A stretch of DNA of 64,000 nt from Desulfarculaceae bacterium. Lineage in GTDB: Bacteria > Desulfobacterota > Desulfarculia > Desulfarculales > Desulfarculaceae. Under the pieces are notes generated by a model, which had not been told where the DNA came from, ran no database searches, and saw only the letters and a program-made list of their open reading frames with translations. The DNA lies in contig JAHLKT010000003.1 of the NCBI GenBank assembly GCA_020444545.1, forward strand, positions 1-64,000. The letters are read 5' to 3'. The position numbers and the translations under genes are program-made. Position 1 is the stretch's first letter, and each line of letters begins with the position of its first letter. This document shows positions 6,729 to 59,365 of this stretch, piece by piece.

Positions 6729-9425
6729 ATGAGCTCCACCCAGGCAACCATGACCCTAAACGGCGCCACGGTCACCTTCACCCCTGGTCAGACCATCCTG
6801 GAGGCGGCCCGCGACCACGGCGTGAAAATACCCACCCTCTGTTATCTCAAGGGCTGCACCCCCACCGGGGCCTGCCGGGTGTGCCTGGTGGAGGTCAAAG
6901 GCGCCCGCACCCTGGTGGCCTCCTGCGCCATGCCCGCCGGAGCGGGCATGGAGGTGGAAACCGACACCCCCAAGGTGCGCACCGCCCGCAAGCTGGCCAT
7001 CGAGATGCTCCTGGCCAGCGGGGACCACAACTGCCTCATCTGCGAGGCCAACGGCGAGTGCTCGCTCCAGGCCCTGGCCTATGAGTACGGGGTGGACGCG
7101 GACCGCTTCCCGCCCACCATCCCCGCCGAGCCCCTGATGGATGACAACCCCCTAATCATCCGGGACCAGGCCAAGTGCATCCTCTGCGGCCGCTGCGTGC
7201 AGGCCTGCAACGAGGTGCAGGTGAACCGGGCCATCGGCTTCGGCTACCGGGGGGCCCAGGCGCGCATCATCACCACCGGGGACCGCCCCCTGGACCAGAG
7301 CGACTGTGTGTTTTGCGGCCAGTGCGTACAGTCCTGCCCCACCGGCGCGCTCAGCGAGAAAAAGGCCAAGGGCCTGGGCCGCCCCTGGGAGACCAGCAAG
7401 GTGCGCACCACCTGCCCCTACTGCGGGGTGGGCTGCCAGCTCTGGCTGCACGTGCATAAGGGCCGCATCATCAAGGTCACCGCCGTGGAGGAGGCCCAGC
7501 CCAACCGGGGCCGCTTGTGCGTGAAAGGCCGCTTCGGCTACGACTTCGTGCACTCCTCCGAGCGCCTGACCACGCCGCTTATCAAGGAGAACGGCGAGTT
7601 CAGGGAGGCCTCCTGGGACGAGGCCCTGGACCTGGTGGCCACTAAGTTCTCGGCCATCATTGCCGAGAGCGGGCCCGACGCCCTGGCCGGGGTTAGCTGC
7701 GCGCGCAGCACCAATGAGGACTCCTACAACATGCAGAAGCTCTTCCGGGCGGTGATCGGCACCAACAACATTGATCACTGCGCCCGGGTGTGCCACGCCC
7801 CCACCGTGGCCGGCCTGGCCCGCTCCTTCGGCTCCGGGGCCATGACCAACAGCTTCGCGGACTTCGACCAGGCCAAGATGTTCTTCGTCATCGGCTCCAA
7901 CATGACCGAGGCTCACCCCGTGGCGGCCACCTTTGTCAAAAACGCGGTGATGAACGGGGCCAAGATGGTTTTGGTGGACCCCCGGCGCACCGCCCTGGCT
8001 GAGTTCGCCACTTCGCATCTGCCGCTCAAGGTGGGCAGCGACGTGGCCCTGATCAACGGCCTGATGCACGTGCTGATCAACGAAGATCTCTACGACAAGG
8101 AGTACGTGCAAAGTTGCACCGTGGGCTTCGAGGAGCTCAAGGCCAAGGTGCTGGAGTATCCGCCCGAGCGGGCCGCGGCCATCAGCGGGGTGAGCGCCGA
8201 GCGCATCGTGGAGGTGGCCCGTTTGCTGGCCGCCAACAAGCCGGCCATGCTCATCTACACCCTGGGCATCACCGAGCACACCTGCGGGGTGGACAACGTG
8301 ATGAGCACGGCCAACTTGCAGATGCTCCTGGGCAACGTGGGCTTCCGCTGCGGCGGGGTGAACCCCTTGCGCGGCCAGAACAACGTGCAAGGAGCCTGCG
8401 ACATGGGCGCCCTGCCCAACGTGTATCCCGGCTACCAGAAGGTGGACGACCCCGCGGCTCAAGCAAAATTCCAGGAGGCCTGGGGCGTGGAGCTGGACGG
8501 CAAGATCGGCCTGATGATGCCGGCCATGTTCCGGGGCCTGAGCGAGGGCAGCATCCGGGGCATGTACATCTTCGGCGAAAACGTGGCCAACACCGAGCCG
8601 GACATAACCCACGTGGAGCGCTGCCTGGAGCAGGCCGAGTTCCTGGTGGTCAACGACATCTTCCCCAACGAGACCACCCGCTTCGCGGACGTGGTGCTCC
8701 CCGCCGCCGCCTGGGGCGAGGACGAGGGCACCTACACCAACAGCGAGCGCCGGGTCAGCCGGGTGCGCCAGGCGGTGGAAGCCCCTGGCGACGCCAAGCC
8801 CAATTGGTGGATCTTCAGGGAGATCGCCCGGCGCATGGGCCAGGAATGGGACAGCGCCTCGGGCCAGGAGATATGGGACAACGAGGTCTCGGCCCTGGCC
8901 CCCCAGATGGCGGGCATCAAGTATCGCCGCATCGAGGACGACGGCCTGCAATGGCCGGTGCCCGACCTGGAGCACCCGGGCACGCCCTATCTGCACAAGG
9001 AAGGCTGCTTCACCTGCGGCCTGGGCAATCTGGCGGCCCTGGATTGGCGGCCTCCCGCCGAGGTGCCGGACCAGGACTACCCCATGGTGCTATCCACCGG
9101 CCGCAGGCTCTACCACTACCACACCCGCACCCAGACCGGCCGCTCCGGCGGGCTCAACCAGCTGCTGGGCGAGGAGACGGCCGACATATCCCCGGCCGAC
9201 GCGGCCAAGCTGGGCCTGGCCAACGGCGACAAGGTGAAGGTTAGCTCGCGGCGGGGCTCGGTGAAGGTGCCGGCCCGGGTGACCCCCGAAGTGCCGCCGG
9301 GCCTGGTGTGGATGGCCTTCCACTTCCGGGAAGGCTGCGCCAACTGGCTGACCAACCAGGCCTACGACCCCATCTCCCAGACCGCCGAATACAAGGCCTG
9401 CGCGGTGCGCCTGGAAAAGCTCTAA
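6729..9425 (+). CDS. fdhA: Formate dehydrogenase alpha subunit, Cys type, with NuoG-like N-terminus
   Basis: This 898-residue molybdenum/tungsten bis-pterin enzyme oxidises formate to CO2 or does the reverse. The N-terminal 2Fe-2S domain has Cys38, 49, 52 and 66; then comes a NuoG-type cluster with Cys102, 105 and 111, and a two-cluster ferredoxin domain (CILCGRCVQAC at 150-160, CVFCGQCVQSC at 193-203). The catalytic domain starts with CPYCGVGC (229-236) and has CARVCHAPTVAGL, where Cys355 is the predicted metal ligand; it is TGC (7791-7793), not TGA, so this is not a selenoprotein. No signal peptide or Tat motif is present, so it is cytoplasmic. HdrA and MvhD genes follow, which suggests those as electron partners in place of NAD-linked FdhB. 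Confidence 0.93.
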   Translation: MSSTQATMTLNGATVTFTPGQTILEAARDHGVKIPTLCYLKGCTPTGACRVCLVEVKGARTLVASCAMPAGAGMEVETDTPKVRTARKLAIEMLLASGDHNCLICEANGECSLQALAYEYGVDADRFPPTIPAEPLMDDNPLIIRDQAKCILCGRCVQACNEVQVNRAIGFGYRGAQARIITTGDRPLDQSDCVFCGQCVQSCPTGALSEKKAKGLGRPWETSKVRTTCPYCGVGCQLWLHVHKGRIIKVTAVEEAQPNRGRLCVKGRFGYDFVHSSERLTTPLIKENGEFREASWDEALDLVATKFSAIIAESGPDALAGVSCARSTNEDSYNMQKLFRAVIGTNNIDHCARVCHAPTVAGLARSFGSGAMTNSFADFDQAKMFFVIGSNMTEAHPVAATFVKNAVMNGAKMVLVDPRRTALAEFATSHLPLKVGSDVALINGLMHVLINEDLYDKEYVQSCTVGFEELKAKVLEYPPERAAAISGVSAERIVEVARLLAANKPAMLIYTLGITEHTCGVDNVMSTANLQMLLGNVGFRCGGVNPLRGQNNVQGACDMGALPNVYPGYQKVDDPAAQAKFQEAWGVELDGKIGLMMPAMFRGLSEGSIRGMYIFGENVANTEPDITHVERCLEQAEFLVVNDIFPNETTRFADVVLPAAAWGEDEGTYTNSERRVSRVRQAVEAPGDAKPNWWIFREIARRMGQEWDSASGQEIWDNEVSALAPQMAGIKYRRIEDDGLQWPVPDLEHPGTPYLHKEGCFTCGLGNLAALDWRPPAEVPDQDYPMVLSTGRRLYHYHTRTQTGRSGGLNQLLGEETADISPADAAKLGLANGDKVKVSSRRGSVKVPARVTPEVPPGLVWMAFHFREGCANWLTNQAYDPISQTAEYKACAVRLEKL

Positions 9426-9436
9426 GCGATTGCCAC

Positions 9437-9467
9437 CCCGCCGCCGGGGAGTCTTCCCGGCGGCGGG
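9437..9467 (+). terminator. 12-bp GC hairpin after fdhA
   Basis: CCCGCCGCCGGG at 9437-9448 pairs perfectly with 9456-9467 around a 7-nt loop, 12 bases after the fdhA stop. There is no T tract, so it may be a 3' stability element or a Rho-assisted stop and not a classical terminator. Confidence 0.5.
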
Positions 9468-9543
9468 CCCATGGCCCAAAGCGATAGGCACCTAGCGGCC
9501 ACATCGATATTAAGTATTTGACCAAAGGCGGGGCCTTGCGCTG

Positions 9544-9559
9544 TAATATAGCTATATTA
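9544..9559. promoter_or_regulatory. 16-bp AT-rich palindrome upstream of hdrA (candidate operator)
   Basis: TAATATAGCTATATTA is a perfect 16-bp inverted repeat in an otherwise GC-rich region, about 290 bp before the hdrA ATG. Symmetry and composition fit a dimeric regulator site or an overlapping -10 element. I cannot match it to a known consensus. Confidence 0.4.
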
Positions 9560-9851
9560 TAGCTCCAATCAGGCGGTAGGACATGCCAGTTCGCTTCGGC
9601 TTCACTTGAGTGCCCGTGGGCCACGCTACCCGGGCACGGTAGACCGAGAATGCCGAGGCTGTCCTAACCTAGTCCACGGGCCTTCGCCCGCCAGCCTTAT
9701 TCAATCCTCCCTCCACCTCCCGGGTCGGCCCCCATCGGGGCCCTGGTTCCCTCCGGCGGTTTCGCCGGGACGCGTAGCGATAATTTCAGCCGACGCCCAT
9801 AAGGCGGCAAGAACCCAAGCAGGCGGCTAGCCCGCCGGGGAAAAACAGACC

Positions 9852-12800
9852 ATGAGTGAGGTGCTCAACGATCAAGTCCGGCAGCTCTGCCGTGGGGCGG
9901 AGAACGGCGAGTTCGGCGACGTGATGGTGGTGGGCGGCGGGATATCGGGCATCCAGGCCGCCTTGGACCTGGGCACTGCCGGCTTCAAGGTCTACCTGGT
10001 GGACAGCGCGCCCACCATCGGCGGGCACATGGCCCAGCTTGACAAGACCTTCCCCACCAACGACTGCTCCATGTGCATCGAGTCGCCCAAGTTCGTGGAG
10101 TGCAACCGCCATCCCAACATCGAGATAATGACCTACACCGAGGTGGATTCGGTGGAGGGCCGGGCGGGCGACTTCACGGTCACCCTGTTCCAGAAGCCGC
10201 GCTACATCATCGAGAGCAAGTGCACCGGCTGCACGGTGTGCGTGGAGAACTGCCCGGCCACCTACCCGGACCAGTTCAACCAGGAGATATCGGACAACAA
10301 GTCCATCCACATCTACTTCGCCCAGGCCATCCCCCTGAAGCCCTACATCGATCAAAGCTGTCTGTACCTGAAGGAAGGCAAGTGCCGGCTCTGCGAGGCG
10401 GTGTGCAAGACCGGGGCGATCGACTTTCACCAGAAGGGCGAGAGGCTCCAGGTCAAGGTGGGGGCGGTGATCCTGGCGGCCGGTCTGGAGCCCTTCGACC
10501 CTTCCGGGCGGCCGGAGTATCACTACGGCGAGTTCGCCAACGTGGTGACCAGCATGGACTACGAGCGCCTGCTCTGCGCCACCGGCCCTTACGAGGGCGA
10601 GATTCTGCGGGCCTCGGACGGCAAGCACCCCCACAACATCGCCTGGATCCATTGCATCGGCTCGCGCCGGGTGACTCCCGGGGACAACGGCTACTGCTCG
10701 GCGGTGTGCTGCACCTACACCCAGAAGCAGGTGATCCTGACCAAGGACCACGACGCGGAGGCCCGCTGCACCATCTTCCACAACGACATCCGCTCCTACG
10801 GCAAGGACTTCGAGCGCTTCTACGCTCGGGCCGAGGCTTTGCCGGGCACCCGCTTCATCCGGGCTTACCCCAGCATCGTGCGCGAGGACCCGGAGAGCAA
10901 GAACGTGACCCTGCGCTACGCCACCCCGGAAGGGGTCAAGGAAGAGGAGTTTGACATGGTGGTGCTCTCGGTGGGGCTCAACCCGCCCAAGGGCATGACC
11001 GCTTTGGCCGCCAAGTGCGGGGTGGAGCTGGAGCCCCACGGATTCTGCCAAAACCAGCCCTTCAACCCCATGCAGACCTCGCGGCCGGGCATCCTGGTCA
11101 GCGGCGCCCTGCAAGGCCCCATGGACATCCCCGAGGCGGTGGTCACGGCCAGCGGGGCGGGCTCCCAGTGCGGCCAATTACTCAACTACCGCCGGGGCAA
11201 GCTCTCGCGGGAGCGGGTCTACCCGGCCGAGCGCGACGTGTCCCAAGAAGAGCCGCGCATCGGGGTGTACGTGTGCCACTGCGGGGCCAACATTGGGCGC
11301 ATCGTGGACGTGCCGGGCACCGTGGAGTACGCCAAGAGCCTGCCCCACGTGGTGCACGCCGAGGAGAGCCTGTTCATCTGCTCCACCGAGGCGGCGGCCA
11401 TGCTGGCCGAGGACATCGAGCAGCGCGGGCTGAACCGGGTGATCGTGGCCGCCTGCACCCCGCGCACCCACGAGCCCCTGTTCCGCGACACCCTCAGGGA
11501 AGCGGGCATTAACCAATACTATTACGACATGGCCAACATTCGGGAGCACTGCTCCTGGGTGCACTCCAAGGAAAAGGAAGCGGCCACGGACAAGGCCCAG
11601 GACATCATCCGCATGTCCGTGGCCCGGGCCCATTTCCTGGAGGCCCTGCAAGAGTTCGACCTGCCGGTGGACGACCGGGCCCTGGTGGTGGGCGGCGGGG
11701 TGGCGGGCATGACCGCCGCCCTGTCCATCGCCGAGCAGGGGCACGAGGTGTTTTTGGTGGAAAAGGCCCCTGAGCTGGGCGGCCTGGCCCGGCGCATCCA
11801 CCACACCCTGGAGGGCCGGGAAGTGGGGGGCTTTGTGCGCGATATGGCCGACAAGGTCTTCAAGCACCCCCTGGTCCACGTGTACACCAAGGCCGAGATC
11901 AGCGAGGCCAGCGGCTATGTGGGCAATTTCTTCACCAAGGTCGTCTCCTCGCGCGGCATCAGCGAGATCCGCCACGGGGCCACGGTGATCGCGGTGGGGG
12001 CCGAGCTCTACGAGCCCACGGAATACCTCTACGGCCAGGACCCCCGGGTGATGAACCACCTGGACCTGGAGGACAAGATCGTCGGGCACGATCCCCTGCT
12101 GCGCGAGGCCCGAGCGGTGGTGATGATCCAGTGCGTGGGCTGCCGCAACGAAGAGCGGGGCTATTGCAGCCGGGTGTGCTGCGGCGAGTCCATCAAGAAC
12201 GCCCTGGCCCTCAAAGAGGCCGACCCTGAGCGCGAGGTCTACATCCTCTTCCGCGACATGCGCACCTACGGCTTCAAGGAGGACTATTACCGCGAGGCCA
12301 GCGAAAAGGGGGTGCGCTTCATCCGCTACACCCCTGAAGACCCGCCCCGGGTGGAGGCGACGGACGATGACGAGGGCCGGCCCGTGCTCAGGGTGTCGCT
12401 GACCGACCCTGTCCTGGCCGAGGAGCTGGCCATAGACGCGGACCTGTTGGCCTTGGCCGCGGCGGTGGTGCCCAACCAGGCGGCCAAGCAGATCGCCCAG
12501 ATGTTCAAGGTGCAGCTGGGGCCGGACGACTTCTTCCAGGAGGCCCACGTCAAGCTCAGGCCCGTGGACTTCGGGGCCGAGGGGGTGTTCCTCTGCGGCA
12601 TGGCCCACTACCCCAAGTACCTCTCCGAGACGATCAACCAGGCCTATGGCGCGGCGGGCCGCGTGCTGACCCTCTTGGCCAACGACACGGTGGTGGCCTC
12701 GGGCTCGGTGTGCGCGGTGGAGGCGGAGCGCTGCATGGGCTGCGGGGCCTGCGTGGAGGCCTGCGCCTATGGGGCCATCGAGCTCAAGAACACCAAGCAA

Positions 12801-13007
12801 GGCCCCAAGGCCGAGATCATCCCCATCCTGTGCAAGGGCGACGGCCTGTGCAACAGCAAGTGCCCCACCGAGGCCATCCAGCTGAAGCACTACACCGACC
12901 AGGAGCTGTCCCACCAGATACGGGCCGCCCTGCACCAGGAGTTGGACCTGAACCAAGGCGCGGAGCCCGCGCCCCCGGCCGGAAAGGCGGCTTCCCATGG
13001 GTGCTAG
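9852..13007 (+). CDS. hdrA: Tandem HdrA-like FAD/iron-sulfur protein
   Basis: This 1051-residue protein carries two HdrA units. Unit 1 has a GGGISG dinucleotide fold (about 27-35), the HdrA Cys cluster around CSMCIESPKFVEC, and an inserted ferredoxin (CTGCTVCVENCP near 124, CRLCEAVC near 178). A linker resembling the HdrA N-terminal domain (CHCGANIG ... CTPRTHEPLF) leads to unit 2, with a second FAD fold (GGGVAG near 613) and CVGCRNE/CSRVCC cysteines. Two 4Fe-4S motifs end the protein (CMGCGACVEAC near 961, CKGDGLCNSKC near 994). HdrA flavins bifurcate electrons in methanogens and sulfate reducers. With FdhA upstream, MvhD overlapping downstream and no HdrB/HdrC here, it likely passes formate electrons between ferredoxin and another carrier. 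Confidence 0.92.
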   Translation: MSEVLNDQVRQLCRGAENGEFGDVMVVGGGISGIQAALDLGTAGFKVYLVDSAPTIGGHMAQLDKTFPTNDCSMCIESPKFVECNRHPNIEIMTYTEVDSVEGRAGDFTVTLFQKPRYIIESKCTGCTVCVENCPATYPDQFNQEISDNKSIHIYFAQAIPLKPYIDQSCLYLKEGKCRLCEAVCKTGAIDFHQKGERLQVKVGAVILAAGLEPFDPSGRPEYHYGEFANVVTSMDYERLLCATGPYEGEILRASDGKHPHNIAWIHCIGSRRVTPGDNGYCSAVCCTYTQKQVILTKDHDAEARCTIFHNDIRSYGKDFERFYARAEALPGTRFIRAYPSIVREDPESKNVTLRYATPEGVKEEEFDMVVLSVGLNPPKGMTALAAKCGVELEPHGFCQNQPFNPMQTSRPGILVSGALQGPMDIPEAVVTASGAGSQCGQLLNYRRGKLSRERVYPAERDVSQEEPRIGVYVCHCGANIGRIVDVPGTVEYAKSLPHVVHAEESLFICSTEAAAMLAEDIEQRGLNRVIVAACTPRTHEPLFRDTLREAGINQYYYDMANIREHCSWVHSKEKEAATDKAQDIIRMSVARAHFLEALQEFDLPVDDRALVVGGGVAGMTAALSIAEQGHEVFLVEKAPELGGLARRIHHTLEGREVGGFVRDMADKVFKHPLVHVYTKAEISEASGYVGNFFTKVVSSRGISEIRHGATVIAVGAELYEPTEYLYGQDPRVMNHLDLEDKIVGHDPLLREARAVVMIQCVGCRNEERGYCSRVCCGESIKNALALKEADPEREVYILFRDMRTYGFKEDYYREASEKGVRFIRYTPEDPPRVEATDDDEGRPVLRVSLTDPVLAEELAIDADLLALAAAVVPNQAAKQIAQMFKVQLGPDDFFQEAHVKLRPVDFGAEGVFLCGMAHYPKYLSETINQAYGAAGRVLTLLANDTVVASGSVCAVEAERCMGCGACVEACAYGAIELKNTKQGPKAEIIPILCKGDGLCNSKCPTEAIQLKHYTDQELSHQIRAALHQELDLNQGAEPAPPAGKAASHGC

Positions 13008-13794
13008 CGCAAAATTCACTCCCAAGATGGTGGGCATCATCTGCAACTGGTGTTGCTACGGCGGGGCGGACCTCTGCGGGGTCTCGCGCTTCCAATACCC
13101 CCCCTACATCCGTCTGATCCGGGTGATGTGCTCGGGCCGGGTGGACATGAAGCACATCCTGGGGGCATTCGCCGAGGGCGCGGACGCGGTGTTCATCGGC
13201 GGCTGCCACCTGGACGACTGCCACTACATCACCCACGGCAACTACGAGGCGCTGAGCATGGTGCAGCTCACCCGGCGTTTGCTGGAGCACGCGGGGGTGG
13301 AGCCGCGCCGCCTGCGCATCGAGTGGGTCTCGGCCGGGGAGGGCATCCGCTTCGCCAACCTGATGAACGAGTTCGGCCGGGAGATGGAAAAGCTGGGCCC
13401 CCTGGGGCAAAGCGAGGGAGTCGAGGCCGGGGAGCTGCAAGCCAGGCTGGGCGAGGTGCTGCGCCTGGTGCCCTACATCAAGATGGCCCAGCGGGAGAAG
13501 CTGGCCCTGCACCTGCGCGACAACCCGGCGGACTATGAGCAGCTCTACAGCGCGGAGGAGGTCGAGCGGCTCCTGCGCGAGGTCCCCATTTATGAGATCG
13601 ACCCGGAGAAGTGCCAGGCCTGCATGATCTGCGCGAAACGCTGTCCGGTGGAGGCCATAACGGGGGCCAAGAAAACCCCGCATGTCATCGACCAGTCCCG
13701 GTGCATCAAGTGCGGCACATGTTTGGACGCCTGCCCGCCGCGCTTCGGGGCCATAAAGATGGAGTCCCCCCTATCTGAGGGAAGCCTCCCATAG
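12997..13794 (+). CDS. mvhD: MvhD-type electron-transfer subunit fused to a HymB-like 2x[4Fe-4S] tail
   Basis: A 265-residue protein. Residues 1-140 are an MvhD (FlpD, hydrogenase iron-sulfur) domain with CNWCCYGGADLC (about 16-27), a CSGRVD motif and GCHLDDCHY, which bind a 2Fe-2S cluster and hand electrons to HdrA. After a helical linker (about 145-200), the C-terminus has two ferredoxin motifs (CQACMICAKRCP near 206 and CIKCGTCLDACP near 236), very like the tail of NuoF/HymB subunits. It overlaps the end of hdrA by 11 bp, so the two are translationally coupled. The fused tail probably extends the electron wire toward FdhA or soluble ferredoxin; that is inference. Confidence 0.9.
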   Translation: MGASAKFTPKMVGIICNWCCYGGADLCGVSRFQYPPYIRLIRVMCSGRVDMKHILGAFAEGADAVFIGGCHLDDCHYITHGNYEALSMVQLTRRLLEHAGVEPRRLRIEWVSAGEGIRFANLMNEFGREMEKLGPLGQSEGVEAGELQARLGEVLRLVPYIKMAQREKLALHLRDNPADYEQLYSAEEVERLLREVPIYEIDPEKCQACMICAKRCPVEAITGAKKTPHVIDQSRCIKCGTCLDACPPRFGAIKMESPLSEGSLP

Positions 13795-14383
13795 CACGCA
13801 TAAGGTGTCCGGAGGTGTTTCAAGGAGAGGCATGCAGGCCTGATAATGGCCAAGAAGCATTAACCTGCCGCCCACTCTTCTGATCAGTCATGAATCACCT
13901 CCGTCAAGCAAGTTACTCGCTTGGTTCGGTGTCCGACAAATCTGGGCTGGATCATCTGCCCAGCGGGTTTGTCCTTGAGTTGGCGCTTGGCCCGGCCCAG
14001 GATCGGCCCTACCCGTGGAACGCACCATGGCTTGTCCGCCTCGGGTTAAGCCGCGGGAGCCGGCCCCATAGTCCGCATGACCGCCGGCGTCACCCATCCT
14101 GCCGCGACCCGGAGCGGGGAACCCTTTGGTTTGTGCGTAAACAACTGGTCATTTTAGGTTATTATGCAAAGCTCCAACCGCACCCCAACCGCTTTGCTTT
14201 TATTTGCCACGTGACCGGCCATATAACCGTTCTATAAATTTAGCGTAAATTTATTTGGCCTACCTTTGGCCCCCGCCCTGACGCGCAATGGGGGGAGGCG
14301 GTCAATAACCTGTCAATAACAGGTTTTTACTGGAAAGGCCGAAAGATATATTGAATGCTCGCCCCTGTTTTGTTACAAAAAGA
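13795..14383 (+). other. Intergenic region upstream of the riboswitch
   Basis: No convincing gene is seen between mvhD and the riboswitch. The segment 14140-14345 is AT-richer than its surroundings and should carry the promoter for the riboswitch transcript. It contains GTCAATAAC twice, 11 bp apart (14301 and 14312), the second lying in the hairpin described separately. Confidence 0.45.
14307..14331 (+). terminator. Short hairpin with T run and overlapping direct repeat
   Basis: AACCTGT (14307-14313) pairs with ACAGGTT (14319-14325) around CAATA and is followed by TTTTTA, an intrinsic-terminator layout that could end the hdrA-mvhD transcript. The sequence also contains GTCAATAAC in two copies one helical turn apart, so a protein-binding site is an alternative reading. 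Confidence 0.4.
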
Positions 14384-14535
14384 AATCCGGTGCCCGCAAG
14401 GGCTCAAAAGGGAAGACGGTAACAAGCCGTCGCGGTCCCGCCGCTGTAGCCGGGGACGAACGCCGCGAAATGTCACTGCCGCAAGGCGGGAAGGCGCGGT
14501 CAGTAGGGAGATCCGGGAGCCAGAAGACCTGCCGG
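14384..14535 (+). promoter_or_regulatory. Cobalamin (B12) riboswitch
   Basis: The conserved parts of the cobalamin aptamer are present in order: CCGGTGCC at the 5' end, AAGGGAAGACGGT, GCGGTCCCGCCGCTGT, a B12-box-like TGTCACTGCCG, GGCGGGAAGGCG, and the closing GAGCCAGAAGACCTGCC. Adenosyl- or methylcobalamin-class aptamers with this layout usually repress uptake or synthesis genes when B12 is present. An intrinsic terminator at 14646-14676 follows within the leader, so control is probably by premature termination. The regulated gene is the exported protein at 14827. Confidence 0.93.
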
Positions 14536-14645
14536 ACAGAACACGAGGACCCGCCATTGCCGCCGCAGACAGCGGTTCATGGGTTCACCATGGCCTATGG
14601 TGGAGGGCGCGTCCGGGAGACCAAGCGAAATCAGGGTGCAATCTC

Positions 14646-14676
14646 CCCAGCCCAAGCAGGGCTGGGTTTTGTTTTT
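14646..14676 (+). terminator. Riboswitch-associated intrinsic terminator
   Basis: CCCAGCCC (14646-14653) pairs with GGGCTGGG (14659-14666) around a 5-nt loop, followed by TTTTGTTTTT. It lies between the cobalamin aptamer and the coding region, 150 bp before the ATG, as expected for the expression platform of a transcription-terminating riboswitch. Confidence 0.8.
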
Positions 14677-14826
14677 GGCGGGGCGCATAGGCCCCGCGAG
14701 GCAAAAGGCGGCTTGGTTGGGTCAGCGCCCGGCCAACCGTCTGCCCGGCCCGAAAACACGGCACAGCCAAGGAATTCAGCGGTAAGACCACGATCCCACA
14801 ACACATCATTAGGAGAACCACAAGAG

Positions 14827-16317
14827 ATGATGACTAAAAAGAACGGCCTGCTGATAATTTTCACCCTGTTGCTGGCGCTGGGGGCCGGGTCGGCCTTGGC
14901 CGACCACCCGGTGGTGCCTTACAACCAGGGCCATCCCATCGCCTTTCCGGTGGTGACCACCTGGGTGGAGCCCCCGCTGGTGATGGCCAAGCCGGTGAAC
15001 CCGGTGTACGTGCCCACCCTGCCGGGCCTGCTGGCCGGCAAGCCGGCCGTGAACTTCATGGGCGGCAAGATACCCAAGCACGACGGCCTGACCATCAAAC
15101 AAAGCAAAGTGGCCGGAGGCAAGGTGACCATTCCGGTGGGTGGCTTTGTGTTCAAGTGGGATACCACCCGGGGCATCCTGCCGGTGGTGGGCTCCACTGA
15201 GTATGTGTTCGGCCCGGAGAACCTGTGGTACTACGTGGACTACCCTGGCGCGGTGATCGTCAAGGCCACCAACGTGACCCTCAAGAGGGGCGAGAAAAAG
15301 GTGGTGGGTGACAATGTCTTCCATTACCTATCGGCCACCGGCCACGGCTGCTTCCGCAACCCGGTGGTGGACCTGCGCACCGAGTCCGGGGTGGCCTGGG
15401 ACTTCGTGGGCATGGCTCCGGCCACCTTCACCGTGGGCCTGACCAAGCAGGACCCGGGCAAGGACTTGCACTACGGCTATCCCGCGGGCAGCAAGCCCGG
15501 CGGCCCGCAAGAGGCGGTGCTGTTGGACTACAACCAGCTTTTCGCCTCGCGGGATAAGATCAGCGGCAAGCAGATCACCCTGGACACCATTTACAGCACC
15601 GACTTGCAGACCTGGACCATGAGCCCCACCCTGGCCTTCAAGGGCCGGGTGGCGGACGGCAAGACGGTCAAGGCCGGCGCTTATCAGGTGCAGGTGACGG
15701 AGGCCAAAGCCACGCCGGACAAGCAGAGCGCCAAGGTGCGCTTGCTCAAGGACGGCAAGGAGCTGGCCGCCAAGACCCTGGTCTGGCGCCCCAAGGCCGA
15801 CCGCTACCTCTCGCCCTACAATGTGAAGTGGCAGAAGAATGTGCTGCTCAAGCACGATGGGGTCATCGTGCACCTGCTGGCCGCCCACTACCCCAAGATG
15901 TCCAACCCGGTCAACGCCCAGGGAGCCGAGCTGGCGGTGTACACCGATTGCATCGAGGTCAGCGACGGCAAGCCCTGCCCCTGGGACAAGCGCTTCGCCT
16001 TGGACTTCCAGCAATGCCCCCAGGGCCACGGCTTTGGCACGGTGTTCTGGAACACCATGCCCATCGTGCTGGACGCCAAGAATCCGGTGTTCAAAGGGCC
16101 GGCCGGTTACCTGAGCCTGGTCATCGACAAAATAGAGGGTGACCAAGTCACCTTCCATCTGGCCACGGCCAAGGGCAAATCCCTGGAGTTCACCAAGACC
16201 GGCAACGTGGACCTGATCCTGGGTCAGGGGCGGGCCCAAAAGGACCTGATCCGCGATCTGAATCACGCCACCGAGCGCGAGATGTACCGTCAGTTGGAGA
16301 AGAGCCGGGCCAAGTAG
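14827..16317 (+). CDS. Exported protein of unknown function under cobalamin control
   Basis: A 496-residue protein with a textbook Sec signal (MMTKKNGLLIIFTLLLALGA..., cleavage ALA|DHP near residue 25), so it is periplasmic or surface-exposed. The mature part is rich in beta-forming Val/Gly/Thr segments. It has a few cysteines (HGCFRN; then DCIEV, KPCPW and QQCPQGHG close together, suggesting a disulfide or metal site). I recognise no family and see no TonB box, beta-barrel end or cobalamin-binding motif. AGGAGA ten bases before ATG 14827 supports the start. It is the only gene between the riboswitch and the terminator at 16342, so it is the riboswitch target. A role in corrinoid capture or in replacing a B12-dependent step is inference. 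Confidence 0.85.
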   Translation: MMTKKNGLLIIFTLLLALGAGSALADHPVVPYNQGHPIAFPVVTTWVEPPLVMAKPVNPVYVPTLPGLLAGKPAVNFMGGKIPKHDGLTIKQSKVAGGKVTIPVGGFVFKWDTTRGILPVVGSTEYVFGPENLWYYVDYPGAVIVKATNVTLKRGEKKVVGDNVFHYLSATGHGCFRNPVVDLRTESGVAWDFVGMAPATFTVGLTKQDPGKDLHYGYPAGSKPGGPQEAVLLDYNQLFASRDKISGKQITLDTIYSTDLQTWTMSPTLAFKGRVADGKTVKAGAYQVQVTEAKATPDKQSAKVRLLKDGKELAAKTLVWRPKADRYLSPYNVKWQKNVLLKHDGVIVHLLAAHYPKMSNPVNAQGAELAVYTDCIEVSDGKPCPWDKRFALDFQQCPQGHGFGTVFWNTMPIVLDAKNPVFKGPAGYLSLVIDKIEGDQVTFHLATAKGKSLEFTKTGNVDLILGQGRAQKDLIRDLNHATEREMYRQLEKSRAK

Positions 16318-16341
16318 AGCCCAACCCGCGTGACCAAGACA

Positions 16342-16372
16342 GAGCCCCCGGCAACGGGGGCTCCGTTCTTTT
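16342..16372 (+). terminator. Intrinsic terminator after the cobalamin-controlled gene
   Basis: GAGCCCCCG (16342-16350) pairs with CGGGGGCTC (16355-16363) closed by a GCAA tetraloop and followed by CGTTCTTTT. A compact, strong rho-independent terminator. Confidence 0.85.
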
Positions 16373-16702
16373 CTAGGGGCATGCCTCGGCGGGCGGCTGT
16401 TCAGGTCCGCCGGGAGGGCGGGAGGTTGCTTGATCCGCCGCCGGCCGCAGGAAGAGATAGACTACATCCTGGCAATAGTAGGGGTGACTAGGGCCCTAGA
16501 ATTGCCCCTCTCTTTGGTGGAACTGGCCCAATTATCCCGGGATGCCCGGTGCCAGCCTCCTGACCGATCATTTGTCCTCGCCCGCCGAGCTTAAAGTTAA
16601 AACCCGGGGTGCGCCGAACCCACGGCGATCTTTGCCCCGGCTCGGCTAAAAGTCCAAAATTTTCCTCAGAAATTCGCGCGGTTTTTCAGGCAATGGCAAA
16701 GA
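16373..16702. other. Intergenic region left of the island
   Basis: About 330 bases between the terminator at 16342 and the old tRNA terminator at 16703. I see no gene, RNA or repeat in it. Confidence 0.4.
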
Positions 16703-16734
16703 AAAGAGGCCAGCCGCAACCGGCTAACCTCTTT
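16700..16734 (-). terminator. Original tRNA-Glu terminator, displaced to the left end of the island
   Basis: AAAGAGG plus AGCCG (16703-16716) pair with CGGCT plus CCTCTTT (16721-16734); on the minus strand a T-rich tail follows. It sits directly beyond the displaced tRNA-Glu 3' end, so it probably terminated tRNA-Glu before the island came in. A very similar hairpin replaces it at 59281-59311. Confidence 0.65.
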
Positions 16735-16740
16735 ATATAA

Positions 16741-16788
16741 TTTGGCAGTCCCAACGGGGTTCGAACCCGTGTCTTCGGCGTGAGAGGC
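16741..16788 (-). repeat. attL: 48-bp duplicate of the tRNA-Glu 3' part
   Basis: These 48 bases are identical to 59318-59365, which form the 3' part of the intact tRNA-Glu gene (CCA end, T arm, variable loop, anticodon arm up to the loop). Identity stops in the anticodon loop. This is the standard duplicated core left when a tyrosine-recombinase element inserts into a tRNA gene. It fixes the left boundary of a 42.6-kb island. Confidence 0.95.
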
Positions 16789-16856
16789 AGCCCAGGGGGA
16801 CGGATTCCGCCATTTTAAGCCGGTTTGGGCCGGTTTTTACCCCTTTTTACCGAGTA

Positions 16857-16880
16857 AACTGTAGCCAGAACTGTAGCCAA
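16857..16880. repeat. Arm-type integrase site candidate, left end
   Basis: AACTGTAGCC...CTGTAGCCAA here matches the 24-bp stretch at 59251-59274 at 21 of 24 positions in the same orientation. Each copy contains two CTGTAGCC words 12-13 bp apart. Their place just inside each att core fits arm sites for the integrase. Confidence 0.55.
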
Positions 16881-16969
16881 GACTACGATGCAGAAGTTGG
16901 AGAAGGTGTTCTCTGGCTTGTTTTCAAGGCCGTGAGGGTGAGTGAATCAAATTTTGGGACCTCGCTGGC

Positions 16970-17404
16970 TTATGGCTCAGATCGACATACAACCGCCGGG
17001 TCCAAAGTAAAGGCACAAGGCTGGCCCTGCTGGGCCTGCCAGTGATGGACCTCGAAGCGCGAGGTACAGCCGGCATCTTCCCAAAGAGCGGTCCGCCCTC
17101 GCGGGTCACAGACCAGCAATACAGCGTGACCCTGCCAAGTCTTGGTTAGCATCACGTCTCCCTGAAAATTAATTAGGAGGTCGCTGCTGTCAGCGCGATT
17201 CAGGCAGCTTGCAACCAGCTCTCGGTTCGCCAAACCTGGTGGCGGCCCACTTGGGTCTTGTAGGCAAGCCTCCAGAATACTAGTAACGCGGGAGAGTTCC
17301 GCTGCCCTTTGGTATATTGCCTCTGATTTGGGTTGACCGCAAATCGCACATCCTATGGTCATCAACAAGGCAAGGCCGGCCAGACAGCCCAGTGCCGCAC
17401 GCAT
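16970..17404 (-). CDS. Small lipoprotein-like exported protein, unknown
   Basis: A 144-residue protein with a hydrophobic N-terminus (RAALGCLAGLALLMTIGCAICG) that ends in a weak lipobox (TIGC), so it may be an outer-membrane or inner-membrane lipoprotein. The rest is soluble, with Cys residues in EACLQD, ASCLN, LVCDP and AGCTS that could form disulfides. No family is recognised. The ATG at 17404 overlaps the stop of the preceding phospholipase-like gene (TGATG), so it is coupled to it; a GTG at 17407 is an alternative start. GC content is lower than in the chromosome proper. Confidence 0.65.
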   Translation of the reverse strand: MRAALGCLAGLALLMTIGCAICGQPKSEAIYQRAAELSRVTSILEACLQDPSGPPPGLANRELVASCLNRADSSDLLINFQGDVMLTKTWQGHAVLLVCDPRGRTALWEDAGCTSRFEVHHWQAQQGQPCAFTLDPAVVCRSEP

Positions 17405-18324
17405 CACGCTTCCTCCCAGTAAACATGCTCACCATCGGCCTGGCGACCTGTGTCCAGGTTCCAACCCCGTGACGCCGATAGCGTTGGCTCTTCGGATCCA
17501 GCCAATTGCCGGTCAATGAGTTGCCACATGCCAAGCACGTTTTTCTGCCCGCGCTGGAAAATATCGTCGTAGCTCATGGGACCTTCTGGAGTCGCTACTC
17601 CATCTAAATATTGACGTTCCACCTCTGGCGGGCGTGGGTAGTTGAGCCCTAAACCCATGCTGAGATGCCTGGCCCACGTGACAAGCCGGTAGCCTTCGGA
17701 AGCGATTTAATCCATGACAAAGAGAAAGCCTCGGTGCCAGAGATCAGGGTCCGGTGGGTTAGAGGCAAACGCTTCAGAGTAGGCATCTTGCAGCATTCCT
17801 TGCCACAAGCCACGCACTCCCTCATGTATAGCCCTAGGACTTTGCTTGGATGTGCACCGAGCAATTCCGGAATCAAAGTATTCTGGAACCCCGACTTCGC
17901 CCAGGTTCAGCTGGGGAAAAATGAAAGCGTCTTGATGCAGTTCGCATATACGGTGCGCGGTCTCATTACCCTTGTATGGCCCGACCTTGAGCTCCACTAC
18001 TGGATGCACGGTCATGTCCAAAACCACATGGGAAGCGTAGCCAAGAAACCAAGCCAAACATTTGCGCCGCTCATTACCTTGTAGGTTGCGCAGCCGGCTC
18101 ACACCTGCGTTTAGAAGCTCAACGACTTGTTCGTAGTGCATCAGATCGGCCCAATCGTTGGCAGCTTCGTTGCCTAAGGCAAGGTAGGGGTAGTCAGGAC
18201 TCACCGCCCCCAAATCGCAAAAGTGCGGGTAATAGAGAAAAGACGCGCGTACCTCGTTCGGGAGCTCCTGCATGTGGTCCCGCATTTTGGCGATAAGAGT
18301 CAGATGGGCATATGACGCCGGCAT
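17404..18324 (-). pseudogene. Zinc-dependent phospholipase C-like gene with in-frame TAA
   Basis: Residues 1-205 resemble the Zn_dep_PLPC family (bacterial phospholipase C / S1-P1-like helical fold): an opening with MPASYAHLTLI, HFCDLGAVSPDYPYL, LGYASHVVLDMTVHP and repeated His/Asp metal-ligand candidates. A TAA at 17707-17709 interrupts it. The same frame then stays open for another 100 codons (17706-17404), ending in coding-like sequence. Either this is one gene with a nonsense mutation or two short genes, the second starting at the ATG at 17658. One original gene of about 306 codons is favoured because the frame and composition continue. The complete family protein would be secreted or surface-acting, but no signal peptide is visible here. 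Confidence 0.6.
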
Positions 18325-23475: not shown

Positions 23476-24694
<1,219 letters not shown>

Positions 24695-56437: not shown

Positions 56438-57656
<1,219 letters not shown>

Positions 57657-59317: not shown

Positions 59318-59365
59318 TTGGCAGTCCCAACGGGGTTCGAACCCGTGTCTTCGGCGTGAGAGGCC
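59318..59365 (-). repeat. attR: 48-bp core within tRNA-Glu
   Basis: Identical to 16741-16788. It spans from just past the CCA end to the anticodon loop of the tRNA-Glu gene. The island brought this copy, which keeps the tRNA intact. Right boundary of the island. Confidence 0.95.

Follow-up and report, generated by a model that had tools for sequence, protein, structure and literature searches.

Within the 64,000-nucleotide stretch of Desulfarculaceae DNA analyzed here (the window), a cobalamin riboswitch, an intrinsic terminator and the gene for an exported 496-aa protein, P0001, follow one another on the forward strand. The aptamer (14371..14550) meets Rfam RF00174 over all 189 model positions (model 1-189), scoring 104.5 bits where the gathering score is 31.5 (E 4.4e-25 in the 64-kb search). 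Behind it come a linker or expression platform (14551..14645) and, starting about 96 bp 3' of the aptamer and thus before the gene, the terminator of the platform (14646..14675; CCCAGCCC-AAGCA-GGGCTGGG-TTTTGTTTTT), a G+C-rich hairpin of -17.6 kcal/mol followed by a T run. It was among the two strongest of 10 terminator-like sites in the region, where 2.7 were expected. A consensus scan of the region also gave two sigma-70-like promoter matches against 0.5 expected, and a weak match (9/12) upstream of the leader on the same strand (14138..14165) is a possible promoter.

The P0001 gene (14827..16317, +) runs from an ATG at 14827 to a stop at 16317, behind a Shine-Dalgarno sequence AGGAG (14812..14816, +). 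Its first 25 codons (14827..14901, +) encode what we read by eye as a Sec-type signal peptide, MMTKKNGLLIIFTLLLALGAGSALA cleaved before D, with a KK n-region, a hydrophobic core and the cleavage motif ALA before that D. Because a further terminator (16342..16373, +) directly follows the gene, we take this to be a one-gene unit; no second gene was found in the unit and no transporter gene adjoins it. A 615-aa version of the reading frame was rejected as a gene, since it extends upstream through the riboswitch. The intact reading frame, native G+C content at codon positions (0.891 at third positions), signal peptide, ribosome site and the two terminators together suggest that P0001 is under selection. 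The original prediction of a full cobalamin aptamer, a terminator and a single 496-residue Sec-exported protein therefore stands, with coordinates right to within 13 bases and the aptamer starting at 14371 rather than 14384.

The cobalamin riboswitch class is known for switching expression off when the ligand binds. From aptamer through linker to terminator, the P0001 leader can be aligned with two others, one at C1:906270 of the same genome and one in a congener, at about 74% identity (the figure for aptamer plus platform against leaders L010 and L053, in both of which the terminator is conserved). This close likeness to another B12 leader of the same genome makes it look like a working transcription OFF switch, and a platform common to homologous leaders looks functional. 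Repression of the P0001 gene by cobalamin would follow from the aptamer class and this anatomy. Folding of the leader gave no convincing single antiterminator helix, and a search of it for a second RNA family returned chance-level matches only. The riboswitch by itself is ordinary: it shares a full consensus aptamer and a terminator between aptamer and gene with other RF00174 systems that use a terminator platform, and differs from them in its target, an orphan exported protein rather than a gene of transport, synthesis or a known B12-independent isozyme.

Seven cobalamin riboswitch matches, that of the P0001 leader among them, were found at six sites of the host genome. Downstream of the others come a BtuF-CbiZ fusion, a TonB receptor (behind a tandem riboswitch pair), a ThiC-family gene with a CobT-like gene (by eye) after it, and, at the two remaining loci, targets without recognized function. 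The first three show that such switches do govern B12 genes in this genome, and with P0001 the B12 regulon gains an orphan exported protein. The riboswitch at C1:906270 heads genes for an exported 296-aa protein, a NapH-like 4Fe-4S membrane protein and a 2-hydroxyglutaryl-CoA dehydratase D-like protein. Those at C8:100748 and in a congener (G003, leader L053) precede small proteins of about 110-156 aa that are alike by eye, one of which was scanned and has no Pfam match.

An exported protein family with a cysteine or probable selenocysteine site

P0001 gave nothing over cut-off in Pfam and no match in NCBIfam or among PDB sequences, which rules out a recognizable B12 domain and agrees with the prediction that the target lacks a recognizable B12 function. 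This holds for the known corrinoid-binding and uptake families with models in Pfam and NCBIfam (the BtuF family Peripla_BP_2, TonB, CbiZ and others). Whole-genome searches found relatives at 27-28% identity; several, among them a paralogue in the host genome, contain a single in-frame TGA. An alignment, together with 29 loci recovered when 84,980 species genomes were scanned, defined a family in which exported modules of about 500 aa occur singly or, in many relatives, as two in tandem; P0001 is a divergent member. Homology extends over the whole module in tblastn comparisons of P0001 with its relatives (1e-10 to 1e-40), and the family HMM gives P0001 507 bits, a score to be read knowing that P0001 belongs to the alignment. 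The hosts include Desulfobacterota, Acidobacteriota, Bacillota and Chloroflexota. No Pfam or NCBIfam model scored over cut-off where the family was scanned (0/5 relatives in NCBIfam), and word searches of a 2026 selenoprotein review (PMC13188914) and a paper on new selenoproteins (PMC12013277) gave no sign of it.

Most members carry CxxC, or UxxC by way of the in-frame TGA, at a single column that is invariantly Cys or Sec in the aligned modules. The motif is CGHC in the second module of double proteins, the first module having no Cys/Sec motif, and USTC, UASC, UATC, UPQC and others in single ones. In P0001 the column is occupied by Cys397 (codon TGC) in Cys397-Pro-Gln-Gly-His401 (16015..16029, +), so that the motif reads CPQGH and the partner, or second, Cys is missing. 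A tRNA-Sec scored over the family cut-off in the host genome and in most of the TGA-carrying hosts searched (it was not found in two incomplete genomes), and a stem-loop lies about 17 nt after the TGA in 10 of the 12 relatives folded. Covariation for a SECIS element was weak, in a weak alignment fold whose pairing mask is off by one column in part, so that the stem-loop is no more than consistent with Sec insertion. Taken together, these observations make insertion of selenocysteine at the TGA likely, short of proof. The relatives resemble UxxC redox selenoproteins, thioredoxin-like and others (PMC13188914), in their in-frame TGA within UxxC, their Cys homologues and the stem-loop after the TGA in ten relatives; they differ in lacking any match to a thioredoxin-type family, and P0001 in having Cys at the site and no second Cys. 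The host's own paralogue (C3:425691-426941) has the in-frame TGA in USTC, with a TonB-dependent receptor downstream on the same strand; preceding it is a small secreted protein ending in Cys before TGA. Double CGHC proteins lie in operons with arylsulfotransferase-like proteins, YeiH-type permeases and molybdoenzymes.

The CPxGH subfamily

The closest relatives by score are a protein from a Xanthobacteraceae metagenome-assembled genome (30% identity, E 1e-40) and three Paracoccus plasmid proteins (29% identity). These alphaproteobacterial proteins share with P0001 the motifs CPxGHxF (CPTGHxF in their version; CPxGHxFG defines the P0001 subfamily) and NVDLxLGQGR as well as several His, and the subfamily-conserved residues are H173 (15343..15345, +, in alignment A2), H343, C397 and H401. 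P0001 clusters with them in the tree (support 100/99), a placement to be read with a long-branch warning. The genes next to the alphaproteobacterial relatives encode TusA, DsrE, a small membrane protein and a TusA/MetE-like fusion, and in Paracoccus additionally a cysteine desulfurase, SelA, TrxB, SelB and tRNA-Sec. On plasmid pFER4 of Paracoccus ferrooxidans, for example, cysteine desulfurase, TusA, DsrE, the membrane protein, the P0001 relative, the TusA/MetE-like fusion, SelA and TrxB are encoded at 9262-17476, with SelB and tRNA-Sec nearby. The proposal that P0001 represents a corrinoid-related protein family found no support: the Sec/Cys motif and the gene context indicate thiol or selenol chemistry, among sulfur or selenium genes.

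Control by B12 was likewise not seen among the homologues examined. No cobalamin riboswitch at the gathering score occurred at any of the 29 scan loci (fetched flanks, some contigs short), in the fetched flanks of the four alphaproteobacterial regions (three Paracoccus, one Xanthobacteraceae) or of 20 Desulfovibrionia loci, or at the paralogue in the same genome. A conserved riboswitch association, none having appeared in 53 loci and regions of other genomes, is rejected, and the B12 control of P0001 appears to be a local recruitment. The prediction had proposed asking whether homologues follow B12 riboswitches and had named, as the pair of findings that would count against it, homologues lacking the riboswitch and expression indifferent to cobalamin; the first half is what we found.

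Possible role of P0001

Our leading account, which we hold tentatively and with less than even confidence, is a one-gene cobalamin-riboswitch unit for a B12-repressed exported Cys/His protein that may scavenge cobalt or corrinoid. By its aptamer class and anatomy, the leader would work as follows: cobalamin bound to the nascent RNA would favor the terminator and turn the gene off, and when cobalamin is scarce polymerase would read through and the exported protein would be made. That protein is predicted to be soluble, extracytoplasmic and beta-rich, in a family marked by a Sec/Cys site for redox chemistry or metal binding; with its single Cys beside a His, and other conserved His, the CPxGH site would suit a soft or metal ligand better than disulfide exchange. 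In this lineage the gene seems to have been drawn into the B12 regulon by gaining a leader akin to one found at a second B12-controlled locus. P0001 is most likely an exported protein that binds a ligand through Cys/His and is produced when B12 is short; that ligand, bound or scavenged outside the cytoplasm in such shortage, may be cobalt or a corrinoid. The account draws on the aptamer, the terminator, the monocistronic layout, the homology of the leader, the B12 genes behind other riboswitches of this genome, the family with its invariant C397, the subfamily residues, the tree support with its long-branch warning and the signal peptide. Against it stand the absence of B12 riboswitches at the homologues examined and the own paralogue, the sulfur and selenium genes around the nearest relatives, the lack of similarity to known corrinoid-binding families, the lack of an adjoining transporter and the lack of a convincing antiterminator helix.

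In a more specific version, which we consider rather unlikely, P0001 would represent a new family and bind corrinoid or cobalt, having evolved from a selenol/thiol module by loss of the second Cys and gain of a Cys-His site and come under B12-riboswitch control. A precedent that counts in favor of the leading account comes from Bacteroides, where orphan exported proteins of B12 uptake loci proved to bind B12 (BtuG, PMC6143338; BtuH, PMC8941943; DUF4465, PMC13398666); it bears on P0001 as a base-rate argument only. Like P0001, these are exported orphan proteins of a B12-linked locus, but P0001 has no Pfam or NCBIfam match, is not beside btuB and shows no lipoprotein signal, and B12 binding is for it a candidate property. 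Corrinoid binding would make P0001 a new capture protein outside Bacteroides, and binding of corrinoid or cobalt would mean a new way of capturing corrinoid outside the cytoplasm.

Nearly as likely as the ligand-binding reading, if still somewhat improbable in absolute terms, is a B12-sparing role, in which exported P0001 takes over, under B12 shortage, a step on a sulfur or selenium compound otherwise served by a corrinoid enzyme. The model is MetE, which replaces MetH in other organisms. The TusA, DsrE and TusA/MetE-like neighbors of the Paracoccus and Xanthobacteraceae relatives, with SelA, SelB and tRNA-Sec in Paracoccus, would fit such a role, and methyl-sulfur and methyl-selenium compounds are among the substrates of corrinoid methyltransferases (PMC10418091). 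However, none of the TusA, DsrE or Sel partners adjoins P0001, and P0001 lacks a resolving Cys.

It is unlikely, though less so than the last alternative below, that P0001 is a divergent accessory gene in front of which a copied B12 leader happened to land, so that the regulation is real and of little physiological meaning. The distribution of the gene favors such a capture: we found no P0001 orthologue in the genus, in 63 genomes of the class or in 395 of the phylum. Comparable searches found none in order and class samples of 297 and 385 genomes around the Xanthobacteraceae genome (that genome excepted) or in 348 genomes of the Bilophila class. In none of these searches was another CPxGH member recognized, the motif being read in part of the hits only; phages gave no match either. 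Collinearity with the nearest relative breaks just upstream (in a congener with the same upstream genes, similarity stops at window position 13756 and the unit is missing from the matched contig), the leader resembles that of another locus, and the P0001 branch is very long. Yet the codon-position G+C content is native and nothing is broken in the reading frame, signal peptide, ribosome site or either terminator, which makes P0001 look like a gene under selection.

Structural comparison hinted at a possible relationship to archaeal S-layer proteins. In AlphaFold models of P0001 (mean pLDDT 74.1) and a TGA relative (mean pLDDT 88.7), the top VIA-align 2 match of both was the archaeal DUF1608 S-layer domain (3u2g/3u2h), with a first set of figures of Z 9.5, 220/274 residues and rmsd 6.4 and a second of Z 8.4, 217 residues and rmsd 17.6; the rmsd is large in both. 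The search listed no corrinoid-binding fold, an absence that is not evidence against one, and viral fusion proteins that covered about 80 residues were set aside as a common beta arrangement. We take this moderate likeness in fold to DUF1608, with its weak profile support, as a lead on ancestry that is silent on function. That P0001 is itself a structural cell-surface protein related to these S-layer proteins is very unlikely: the best structural match, PF05123 and PF07752 reaching 4.7e-5 and 1.1e-4 in a few relatives, and the tandem modules of many relatives point that way, whereas P0001, a bacterial protein, scores 13.7 bits with PF05123, below the 27-bit Pfam cut-off, the second model (the TGA relative) has no significant Foldseek match, a B12-controlled structural coat would be odd, and the conserved Cys/Sec site implies chemistry.

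Genomic setting of the unit

The riboswitch unit sits just beyond the left end of a putative element of about 42.5 kb. A perfect 47-bp direct repeat occurs at window positions 16742-16788 and 59318-59364. Its second copy forms the 3' part of a tRNA-Glu gene, and the two copies are probably the ends of the integrated element. Two ALIL pseudoknots, scoring 99.6 bits each, lie at window positions 23754-23870 and 56716-56832, with transposase-like reading frames around the first. Upstream of the unit, at window positions 12997-13794, lies an MvhD-like gene without an in-frame TGA; an in-frame TGA is present in the closest MvhD-like copies of several congeners and in another copy in the host genome.
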